From contig CALXRC010000001.1 of assembly GCA_944390865.1 (NCBI GenBank), forward strand, positions 62,001 to 126,000: DNA of 64,000 bases. The letters run 5' to 3'. Shown in pieces: positions 40,179 to 42,991 of the stretch. The notes under the pieces are model-generated. The model was given only the letters and a program-made list of their open reading frames with translations, was not told the origin of the DNA and did no database searches. Position 1 is the first letter of the stretch. The number at the start of each line of letters is the position of its first letter. The stretch is from an uncultured Spirochaetales bacterium (GTDB lineage: Bacteria; Spirochaetota; Spirochaetia; Sphaerochaetales; Sphaerochaetaceae). The translations under genes were made by a program, and so were the position numbers.

Positions 40179-40985
40179 TCAGTCAACCAGAATGACTTCG
40201 CCGTTCGGATAGTTCTGTGCAACGTACTGGGCGACGACATCGCTCTTGAGAGCGCTGACAAGGGCCTGAATCTCAGGTCTGTTCTCATCGCCGTTCCTGA
40301 CTGCGATCACGTTTACGTACGGGCTGTCTCCGCCTTCAACATAAAGGCCGTCGCGTGTTGCGATAAGTCCAGCAGGAATTGCATAGTTTCCATTGATGAC
40401 TGCAGCATCAACATCCTCGATGACACGCGGAAGAGAGGCTGCCTCAATCTCACTGAACTGGAAATTGTGCGGATTGTCTGTGATGTCAGAAGGAACAGCC
40501 TCAATTCCAGCCTCATCGCTGACAGTGATCAGGCCTGCGGATTCGAGGAGAAGAAGCGCTCTTCCTTCATTGGTCGGATCGTTGGGAATTGCGATCACTG
40601 CACCATCCGGGATCTCTTCAGCTGATGCGTATTTTGTTGAATAGAGAGCCATCGGCTCAATGTGAATGCCGCCTGCTGAGACAAGATCATAGCCGTGCTC
40701 TGTATTGAATGACTCAAGATACGGAAGGTGCTGGAAATAGTTGGCATCAATCTCACCTGACTGAAGCGCCTCATTCGGCATCACGTAATCAGTGAACTCA
40801 ACAACTTCCAGTGAGATTCCCTGCTGTGCAAGAGTGTCAGCAACAAGATTGAGAAGCGTTCCATGCGGTTCTGGAGTGGCACCGACTCTCAGAACAGAAC
40901 TATCTGCACTTTCGCTGGCACCAGAAGCGAAAACGAAACCGACAGAAACAATTGCAATAATCAAAACAGATAATAATTTCTTCAT
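40179..40985 (-). CDS. metQ: Methionine-binding (NlpA/MetQ-family) ABC transporter substrate protein
   Basis: A 268-residue NlpA-family binding protein that feeds methionine to MetNI. The leader MKKLLSVLIIAIVSVGFVFASGASES lacks the usual Cys but ends in the Ser/Gly-rich region seen in other spirochaetal binding proteins. The mature part has LRVGATPEPHGTLL, DYVMPNEALQSGEIDANYFQHLPYLE (the ligand-binding NxxYFQH region) and AVINGNYAIPAGL. It is separated from metI by a terminator, a promoter and a Met-rich leader peptide (41,077-41,145), so its expression can differ from that of metNI. SD is AGGGAGAG. Confidence 0.95.
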   Translation of the reverse strand: MKKLLSVLIIAIVSVGFVFASGASESADSSVLRVGATPEPHGTLLNLVADTLAQQGISLEVVEFTDYVMPNEALQSGEIDANYFQHLPYLESFNTEHGYDLVSAGGIHIEPMALYSTKYASAEEIPDGAVIAIPNDPTNEGRALLLLESAGLITVSDEAGIEAVPSDITDNPHNFQFSEIEAASLPRVIEDVDAAVINGNYAIPAGLIATRDGLYVEGGDSPYVNVIAVRNGDENRPEIQALVSALKSDVVAQYVAQNYPNGEVILVD

Positions 40986-41076
40986 TTAGGTAAACTCTCC
41001 CTTTTGTAATTCCTGATTTTTAGATTTAAAGTTTGGCTTGGTCTGCAAAAAAACTGATTGGTTGAAAATAAGAATA

Positions 41077-41145
41077 CTATGCCCTCACGGGCATCATCAT
41101 TGAGGACATCATCATTGCATAACGTGAAGTGTAAAGCTTTGTCAT
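41077..41145 (-). CDS. Methionine-rich leader peptide upstream of metQ (22 codons)
   Basis: This short frame reads MTKLYTSRYA, then MMM-SS-MMM-PVRA and TAG. It holds 7 Met in 22 residues, six of them in two clustered triplets. A perfect SD AAGGAGG lies 8 bases upstream of the ATG (41,154-41,160). A sigma70-like promoter lies just upstream and a terminator of metI before that, so the transcript would begin with this peptide and continue to metQ, 91 bases on. Reading Met codons before a Met transporter gene strongly suggests a ribosome-stalling attenuator or translational switch controlled by charged Met-tRNA. The coding is direct observation; the regulatory role is inference. The mRNA also contains a 9-bp pairing of the SD region with the first MMM region. 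Confidence 0.8.
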   Translation of the reverse strand: MTKLYTSRYAMMMSSMMMPVRA

Positions 41146-41177
41146 TGCGATGTCCTCCTTTTTATCAAGATAGCTAG

Positions 41178-41206
41178 AGAATACAGGAAAGATAAAAGCG
41201 TTTCAA
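41178..41206 (-). promoter_or_regulatory. Promoter of the Met leader/metQ transcript
   Basis: On the minus strand TTGAAA (41,201-41,206, -35) and TATTCT (41,178-41,183, -10) are 17 bases apart, giving a start near 41,170, about ten bases before the SD of the leader peptide. Confidence 0.65.
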
Positions 41207-41292: not shown

Positions 41293-41326
41293 AAAAAACA
41301 GGGCCTTTCCGGAAAGAAAAGCCCTG
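41293..41326 (-). terminator. Rho-independent terminator after metI
   Basis: On the minus strand CAGGGC/GCCCTG enclose an inner CTTTCC/GGAAAG stem (with a TTTT bulge), followed by six T and a further T-rich run. It starts six bases after the metI stop and cuts metNI off from metQ. Confidence 0.85.
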
Positions 41327-41331
41327 CTTTG

Positions 41332-42006
41332 TCAGCGTCTTGACATCATGCGCTTCACGATTCTGTCACCTGCAACCTGAATGATCTCGACCATTATCAG
41401 GATGACAATGACAGCAGCAACAAGATAACTTGGCCTGAAGCGCTGGTAGCCGTAGCGTATGGCCAGGTCTCCCAGTCCGCCGCCGCCTATTGTGCCGGCC
41501 ATTGCAGAGTAGCCGATCAGGTTGATTATCGTCAGCGTCAGGCCGCTCATGAGTGCAGGCATGGCTTCAGGTATCAGAACCTTGTATACAAGCTGCCAGT
41601 TTGTGGATCCCATGGCTTTTGCAGCCTGGATCACACCTGGATCCACTTCCTTCAGCGCGCTTTCGATGATTCTGGCAACAAAGGGTGCCGCAGCTATGGA
41701 AAGAGGGACAATTGCAGCCTTCGTTCCGATGCTTGAACCGACTATGATGCGTGAAAGAGGAATCAGCACGATGAGAAGTATGATGAAAGGAAAGCTTCTG
41801 AGGACATTGACGATCCTCGAGAGCACGCTGTTGAAGACAGGAGAGGGAATAATGCCTCCGTCTTCCTCTTTTCCCGTTATGTGAAGAAGGACACCGATGG
41901 GGAGTCCCAGGAGCAGGGAGAAAACTGTGGAGAAGAAGACCATGACAAGAGTCTCCCCCGTCGCCTCCATTACCTGATTGATCATCTGCATATCCACTTT
42001 AGACAT
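41332..42006 (-). CDS. metI: Methionine ABC transporter permease
   Basis: A 224-residue inner-membrane permease of the MetI family with five predicted helices. TGETLVMVFFSTVFSLLLGLPIGVLL starts the membrane domain, the EAA-type loop is VDPGVIQAAKAMGSTNWQLVYKVLIPEAMP, and GYSAMAGTIGGGGLGDLAIRYGYQRF is the MetI signature. It overlaps metN by eight bases, giving translational coupling. It works as a dimer with MetN; the partner MetQ is the next gene but has its own transcript. Confidence 0.95.
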   Translation of the reverse strand: MSKVDMQMINQVMEATGETLVMVFFSTVFSLLLGLPIGVLLHITGKEEDGGIIPSPVFNSVLSRIVNVLRSFPFIILLIVLIPLSRIIVGSSIGTKAAIVPLSIAAAPFVARIIESALKEVDPGVIQAAKAMGSTNWQLVYKVLIPEAMPALMSGLTLTIINLIGYSAMAGTIGGGGLGDLAIRYGYQRFRPSYLVAAVIVILIMVEIIQVAGDRIVKRMMSRR

Positions 42007-42991
42007 CCCCCTCTATGATTACACCGTATTTCTTCAGCAGCTGGACAGCAAGCCTGACATGCTCCTCATCCGGCCCGATATCAAGGACCATGACGCCAAG
42101 CTCCTCATCGCCTACGTGCTGCACGCCTGCGGCACGGATGTTGAAGGTGGCCCCTGTCTCGATTGCGACATTGCTTATGATAGGCTCGTCAGTGCTTCCG
42201 CCTCTGAAGCGCAGCGTGAAGCGGCCGGCCTCAGTCGACCAGCGGACGATCGAATCCTTGACGTTGGTGAGGTTGGAAAGGAAGTCCTTTGTCACTTCGC
42301 TTCTGGGATTGGCAAAGATGTCAGCGACAAGTCCTTCTTCAACAATGCGTCCTGATTCCAGAACTGCGACACGCTCGCATGCATCACGGACAACTTCCAT
42401 CTGATGCGTGATCATTACGACTGTCAGATTCATCTTGGCCTGAAGCTCCTTGATCAGGGCCAGAATTGATCTTGTTGTCTGAGGATCAAGAGCGCTTGTC
42501 GCCTCATCGCAGAAAAGGATGTCAGGCTGGCAGGCTAGCGCACGCGCAATTGCCACGCGCTGCTTCTGTCCGCCGGAGAGAGTCGAGATAGGAGCATCTC
42601 CCCTGCCTTCCAGACCGACAAGGGACAGAAGTTCATTGACTCTGTTTTTTATATACGCCTTGTCCATTGCGCAGATTTCCATCGGATAGGCAATGTTGCC
42701 TGCAGCATTGCGGGATGAGAAAAGGTTGAAGTTCTGGAATATCATTCCAATATGCCTGCGCTTTTCAATCAGGGCTCCGCCTGTCAGGTTGTCAACCCTT
42801 TCATTGTCATACCATACTTCGCCTGCATCCGGCTTTTCCAGCATGCTGACAAGACGGACCAGAGTGCTCTTTCCGGCACCTGATTTTCCTATGATGCCGT
42901 AAATTGTGTTTGAGGGAATTTCCAGACTGACATCCTGCACTGCATGCAGAGAGCCGTAATCCCTCTTCAGGTTTACCAGTTTTATGTGCAT
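41999..42991 (-). CDS. metN: Methionine ABC transporter ATP-binding protein with C-terminal NIL domain
   Basis: A 330-residue ATPase. Walker A GKSGAGKST, Q-loop MIFQNFNLFSSR, signature [16 protein letters not shown], Walker B ILFCDEATSALD and switch MITHQME are intact. The C-terminal 80 residues (about 250-330, e.g. ATFNIRAAGVQHVGDEELGVMVLDIGPDEEHV) form the NIL domain that senses cytoplasmic methionine and inhibits transport in E. coli. Length is normal for MetN. Its first in-frame Met lies 193 bases from the phosphatase gene. No SAM riboswitch was recognised upstream. Confidence 0.96.
   Translation of the reverse strand: MHIKLVNLKRDYGSLHAVQDVSLEIPSNTIYGIIGKSGAGKSTLVRLVSMLEKPDAGEVWYDNERVDNLTGGALIEKRRHIGMIFQNFNLFSSRNAAGNIAYPMEICAMDKAYIKNRVNELLSLVGLEGRGDAPISTLSGGQKQRVAIARALACQPDILFCDEATSALDPQTTRSILALIKELQAKMNLTVVMITHQMEVVRDACERVAVLESGRIVEEGLVADIFANPRSEVTKDFLSNLTNVKDSIVRWSTEAGRFTLRFRGGSTDEPIISNVAIETGATFNIRAAGVQHVGDEELGVMVLDIGPDEEHVRLAVQLLKKYGVIIEGDV

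Follow-up and report, generated by a model that had tools for sequence, protein, structure and literature searches.

A methionine-rich leader ORF before metQ, conserved among gut spirochaetes and probably a ribosome-mediated attenuator

Genes for methionine uptake in a group of gut spirochaetes are preceded by a short open reading frame (ORF) rich in methionine codons, which, judged from genome comparison, is a conserved feature of that group. The example described here lies between metI and metQ in the window, the whole stretch of 64,000 nucleotides that was analysed, from the genome labelled G000, an uncultured Spirochaetales bacterium. The leader is probably a ribosome-mediated attenuator, whose methionine codons would serve as sensor and, at the same time, as 5' arm of the hairpin under their control. 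Comparison between genomes shows that an in-frame short ORF with methionine (Met) runs is kept before methionine-uptake genes. That charged Met-tRNA is the signal sensed, that metQ responds to it and that the step concerned is termination is what we infer from this arrangement.

By Pfam and NCBIfam, metN, metI and metQ form a methionine ABC importer-like set (Table 1), MetQ being the best NCBIfam name for the lipoprotein at a score below the cut-off. An earlier note on this DNA had claimed a separate transcription unit between metI and metQ, and the layout bears it out: the metI terminator is followed by a promoter, then by AAAGGAGGACATCGCA, a perfect Shine-Dalgarno (SD) sequence, and by the translated-looking ORF MTKLYTSRYAMMMSSMMMPVRA with its stop codon. 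The note was also right about the methionine-rich peptide of 22 codons, seven of them Met, and about its distance to metQ, as 91 nt separate the leader stop from the metQ ATG (40985). Its expectation that Met runs are kept despite sequence drift is upheld by comparison across the leaders of relatives, and the refutation it proposed, related intervals with missing Met codons, failed when those intervals were checked. Its interpretation as a leader peptide thus holds for the unit, the ORF and the Met runs; it overlooked that the leader SD is locked by pairing and that the second Met run supplies the 5' side of a hairpin. A promoter-like TTGAAA ... TAT(T/G/C)CT was seen by eye at the equivalent position in leaders L002-L005, L007, L008 and L010. 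The terminator scan also flags ATGCCCGTGAGGGCAT (41094..41079) as terminator-like, a stretch that forms the last part of the leader ORF itself.

Table 1. Features of the leader locus and its neighbours, in window coordinates; all lie on the minus strand.
Feature	Position	Strand	Remarks
metN, methionine ABC transporter ATPase	41999..42991	-	Pfam ABC_tran and NIL; NCBIfam best match MetN, under cut-off
metI, permease	41332..42006	-	NCBIfam MetI, over cut-off
Intrinsic terminator at metNI end	41295..41330	-	16 pairs, U-run after stem
Leader promoter TTGAAA-17-TATTCT	41178..41206	-	sigma-70-like
Arm A, leader Shine-Dalgarno GGAGGACATC	41149..41158	-	pairs with arm B
Leader ORF MTKLYTSRYAMMMSSMMMPVRA, then stop	41077..41145	-	22 codons, 7 Met; conserved family
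First Met run, 3 AUG	41107..41115	-	Met at nearby codons in most of 75 leaders
Arm B, anti-SD GATGTCCTC, within ORF	41102..41110	-	covariation with arm A
Last Met run, 3 AUG; final AUG belongs to hairpin	41092..41100	-	
Hairpin C:D, ATGCCC-GTGA-GGGCAT	41079..41094	-	codons M-P-V-R-A-stop
Lower stem partner and U-rich tract, 3' of hairpin	41064..41076	-	
G-poor spacer to metQ	40986..41076	-	metQ SD at end
metQ, methionine-binding lipoprotein	40179..40985	-	Pfam Lipoprotein_9, E=4e-92

Leaders are present in 81 of the 139 genomes of the family, a bookkeeping count over sites found by pattern, by metQ bait and by covariance model. By genus, they occur in 46/48 genomes of g16, 15/16 of g1, 10/11 of g8, 3/3 of both g10 and g5, 3/4 of g18 and 1/3 of g9. 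The 58 genomes devoid of a leader divide into 51 in the rest of the family and seven in leader-bearing genera; among the latter, the contig is cut in G013, metQ sits directly behind metI in G022, and no metQ match was obtained at 1e-60 in G088, G111, G112, G117 and G118. With metQ as bait and no leader motif used, 61 genomes (G000 and relatives) yielded 30 loci, that of G000 included, with a leader in 19, none in 10 and a cut contig in one. Twenty further metQ upstream regions, taken from genomes without the hairpin pattern, held nine more leaders, MNTSSTIMMMSFSMCMPWRA and MAINTASKMMYFSMSMTMCMAMCMPSRA being cases in point. That pattern, ATGATGCCCNNNNGGGCA, matches in 74 of the 139 family genomes, its reversed control giving two matches. 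When 80 pattern sites were read, 71 proved to be leader ORFs of 17-25 codons with an SD, two were leaders devoid of one, and seven were chance sites (L070, L076, L077, L105-L108), removed before counting. Repeats were also left out of the counts: L031-L043, which repeat the L001-L014 set, and L006 and L030, which repeat L004 and L045.

A covariance model finds the leader site as its sole match below E=1 in G000. Over 392 genomes of the phylum its strong matches fall in 25, every one within the family. Weak matches (E 0.004-0.09) appear in 14 genomes of other families, where the GC hairpin of the model does not form in the five inspected, which were rejected as leaders; no leader is present at the weak matches G003:C63 (L251) and G104:C1 (L253). 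The exact 24-base pattern, searched over GTDB contigs, returns 79 stretches. Leaders account for 58 of these, in records titled spirochaetes, Bullifex (assigned to Spirochaetaceae by NCBI), Ca. Ornithospirochaeta or Ca. Aphodenecus only; in the other 21 a script finds no such leader, and L122, L154, L176 and L191 were also read. Chance is ruled out as the origin of the leader by this conservation, because related leaders recur across the genomes of the family.

What lies behind the leader is mostly metQ. In L050, L061-L063, L109 and L254 it is a metQ paralogue that looks circularly permuted, in genus g18 it is other metQ paralogues (L252, by metQ match, and L250, by eye), and in L100 it is metN of a second system. 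The permuted MetQ-like lipoproteins carry the C-terminal half of Lipoprotein_9 first and the N-terminal half second; Pfam and NCBIfam were run on those of L050 and L109 only. An Opp-type (SBP_bac_5) binding protein with its own Met leader is found in L101 (581-2272) and L102 (554-2209), which suggests uptake of methionine-containing peptides. Because one element precedes four kinds of uptake gene, the leader fits a cis-regulator of methionine acquisition. Used as a marker, it would place the Opp-type binding protein and the circularly permuted MetQ, likely, in one methionine regulon.

Loci without a leader tell a matching story. In 21 of 24 such metQ loci metI is directly upstream; it is not in G161 and G027, and G162 is the remaining locus. 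Since leaderless metQ genes so regularly adjoin metI, the leader is, on this comparison, the companion of a metQ separated from metNI. In genomes with a metNIQ operon, metN could be placed at nine of 11 loci, and no leader with Met run and hairpin stands before it there; two short ORFs with at least three Met that a script flagged in this search, L114 and L117, look unrelated.

Two helices accompany the ORF. In the first, the leader SD pairs with codons of the ORF that usually end directly before the last Met run, as GGAGGACAU does with AUGUCCUCC; other genomes have GGAGAGUAU paired with AUGCUCUCC, GGAGGUAA with UUACCUCU or GAGAGACAU with AUGUCUCUC. Across 68 leaders the duplex of each with its own arms averages -12.7 kcal/mol, against -10.0 with arms swapped between genomes; in this free-register test z is -9.5, and none of 20,000 shuffles is as low. 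In 34 aligned leaders 97.2% of cells are paired, slid controls giving 39-53%, and changes on both sides number 16 against 4.4 in shuffles; such scores are inflated by related sequences, so that the slid controls and the varied pair types are their safer part. A fixed-register test with GGAG as anchor gave 346 paired cells against 327 +/- 5.6 in shuffles (maximum 348), a moderate result only, since several leaders are shifted in register by 1-2 nt; it is superseded by the free-register test. A leader without a ribosome is thus predicted to be closed by SD pairing. Two leaders, in G023 (L104/L125) and G096 (L084/L160), have no SD and thus no lock, while keeping the Met run and the hairpin; L084 and L104 were excluded from the SD-helix tests. 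By eye, a -10-like box lies directly before their ATG, and these versions are likely leaderless mRNAs.

The second helix is a conserved hairpin, AUGCCC-NNNN-GGGCAU, in which the last Met run provides the 5' strand and the stop codon is overlapped. It spans the final Met codon, Pro, any residue, Arg/Trp/Gly, Ala and stop, and is nearly invariant, by construction in the pattern-found set; it is also present in all 19 leaders found through metQ and in eight g8 leaders. In L211 it is reduced to GCCC/GGGC. L250 and L252 have AUGCGC/GCGCAU in its place, CCC/GGG having become CGC/GCG in a compensatory manner; here the loop contains the stop codon, and the peptides end in MMMMR or MMMR followed by stop, with P-x-R-A gone and MMM(M) kept. 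Therefore the hairpin is supported and P-x-R-A is not needed, even though this rewriting, seen in one genus, may be one event. Many members lengthen the hairpin to 10-12 bp, directly before the U tract, by a lower stem past the bulge of the remaining stop codon, AUGAUG pairing with UAU(U/C); in L050 it reads GAUGAUGCCC-UUUG-GGGCAUGACAUC-UUUUUUU. In g8 the codons are AUGUGC and the 3' arm GUAC, a change that may be a single event. A lower stem of at least three pairs is found in 49 of 68 leaders, against 41.7 +/- 1.6 when swapped (z -2.6), statistically a weak-to-moderate support.

Is this hairpin a terminator? In 75 leaders the G content from +5 to +35 after it is 0-13%, mostly below 10%, and the U content from +6 to +14 is 47-83%. 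Between the core stem and the start of the U-rich tract lie about 5 nt, which is unlike a textbook terminator, and 39 of the 75 leaders pass a loose terminator rule. Rho is encoded in the G000 genome, and instead of intrinsic-like release the transcript may be released by Rho in the G-poor spacer. A mutually exclusive antiterminator of the trp type was not found, alternative pairings being no better than swapped ones: no coevolution was detected for arm B with D, arm B with the metQ SD or the leader SD with the tail (all z > 0 against swapped), nor for arm B or the metQ SD with the tail. Control might bear on translation or message stability rather than on termination, a stalled ribosome protecting the mRNA or opening the metQ SD. 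The SD lock is, after all, a translational device, and the spacer holds no perfect terminator (another terminator-like site is seen there in only 6 of 75 leaders). Yet pairing of the leader anti-SD with the metQ SD is not beyond chance (z +2.0), and metQ has its own SD some 75-150 nt away. We consider such control unlikely.

Like an amino-acid attenuator, the leader is a small ORF equipped with a start, an SD and a stop and located ahead of a gene, and the amino acid which that gene handles is encoded in it several times in a row. Of all 746 codons located after the start and before the anti-SD core, 17.4% encode Met; counted back from the last run, Met stands at codon -3 in 59 of the 75 leaders, at -4 in 40 and at -5 in 57. 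The last run counts three Met in 58 leaders, two in 16 and four in one; length and spacing vary by whole codons, and Cys sometimes replaces Met. Some deviations weigh against attenuation: Met-Cys-Met in g8, Met-Met-Cys in G004/G007, a single Met in L211. The N-terminal half drifts freely among the close relatives L003, L005 and L007. What selection keeps, as far as these comparisons tell, is the reading frame, the two helices and the codons for Met, with some for Cys.

A peptide ending in MMMPxRA could also act by nascent-chain arrest, binding methionine or SAM in the tunnel and stalling at its own stop codon in the manner of TnaC or SpeFL. It is short, Pro is found in nearly all leaders, and Arg/Trp/Gly-Ala precede the stop in most. 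The free variation of the first half argues against this, as does the loss of P-x-R-A in five leaders (cut to P before the stop in L017, L047 and L087, with R in its stead in L250 and L252), so that no residues are conserved beyond the codon run; Ser, Pro and Ala sit where the anti-SD and the hairpin require those codons, and an importer gene is expected to be on at low, not high, methionine. Arrest is thus quite improbable. Least probable of all, indeed very unlikely, is an RNA-only element of riboswitch or thermosensor kind, its hairpins read by a ligand or protein and its Met codons a by-product of AUG stems: both helices are strongly conserved, with TGCCC/GGGCA nearly unvarying, but frame, start, SD and stop are retained, run lengths shift by whole codons, Met codons are enriched away from the anti-SD core, the two apparently leaderless versions without the SD helix still have ORF and hairpin, and the whole Rfam library, SAM riboswitch and T-box included, gives no family at the site. 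The SAM riboswitch RF00162 was not found in the G000 genome. Above cut-off, a SAM-I riboswitch is present in 19 of 138 family genomes, mainly in g16 and g10, and methionine control seems mixed within the family.

The attenuator would probably work like the trp type, with an occlusion geometry akin to that of pyrBI. With ample methionine, or with no ribosome on the leader, both hairpins would form; RNA polymerase would stop behind the second, in an intrinsic-like manner or through Rho in the spacer, the locked SD would bar ribosomes from reloading, and metQ would stay low. When charged Met-tRNA is scarce, a ribosome would halt on the last Met run and cover arms B and C. Because the run is flanked by arm B on one side and by hairpin C:D on the other, a single ribosome would cover both, keep C:D open and let transcription proceed into metQ. 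The net output would be metQ on at low methionine, with metNI, upstream and behind its own terminator, outside the control of the leader. Because no alternative switch pairing was found and expression is a matter of prediction, the leader is not filed as a trp-type attenuator. Two considerations count against attenuation. The hairpin is likewise covered by a ribosome that ends translation in the normal way at the stop codon, therefore discrimination must rest on timing; and methionine shortage also affects initiation. To be sure, methionine is awkward for sensing by a codon run, since every protein starts with it.

Leader attenuators are known for the trp, his, leu, thr and phe types. Like the Met leader, they have a short ORF that lies ahead of genes for one amino acid and carries its codons in a row, with hairpins around it; stalling is the signal, as it would be in the present proposal. 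The Met leader differs in several respects: no antiterminator partner was found for it, its regulatory codons themselves make up the 5' side of the terminator-like hairpin, codons of the ORF lock the SD, the amino acid is methionine and the host a spirochaete. In Escherichia coli pyrBI, the leader ORF runs through the terminator and a ribosome on it blocks the hairpin, as proposed here; unlike the Met leader, pyrBI senses UTP via polymerase pausing, not via a codon run. Leader-peptide attenuators in general are covered in the available parts of two papers (PMC8079986, PMC2965389). The earlier note knew of no well-characterised methionine version in a spirochaete, and this stands; yet a Met-containing leader, metL (MSTTSDRTPATEATTTPGARCMCRRMCAF), has been predicted before metNIQ in Streptomyces lividans (PMC8079986, available part). 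It is leaderless and actinobacterial, was listed from RNA-seq, and its termination is called unclear by the authors; neither a conservation test nor an SD lock nor a hairpin built on Met codons is described in the available part of that paper. A methionine leader upstream of metNIQ is thus already on record as a prediction; the SD lock and the hairpin arm made of Met codons are, on the present comparison, what sets the spirochaete leader apart as a variant. Mycobacterial polycysteine ORFs, which sense cysteine (Canestrari et al., 2020, as described in the available part of PMC9031893), are also tiny and use a codon run for a sulphur amino acid as sensor; unlike the Met leader, they concern cysteine, are leaderless, and no SD lock is described there. 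A spirochaete Met leader, or a conserved Met-leader family, was not found in the literature covered, an absence that weighs little, as most subscription journals lie outside that coverage.

Whether the leader represents a new layout is, in our judgement, evenly balanced. It would consist of one hairpin whose 5' arm is the codon run, no antiterminator, an SD locked by the leader's own codons and a stalled ribosome that opens both, the whole being a module for methionine (perhaps cysteine) uptake in one spirochaete family. Having sensor codons, SD lock and hairpin all within 70 nt would be a natural design, and the lock may limit the leader to one ribosome. If a conserved methionine attenuator is indeed at work, the leader-peptide strategy would extend to methionine, and to the spirochaetes.
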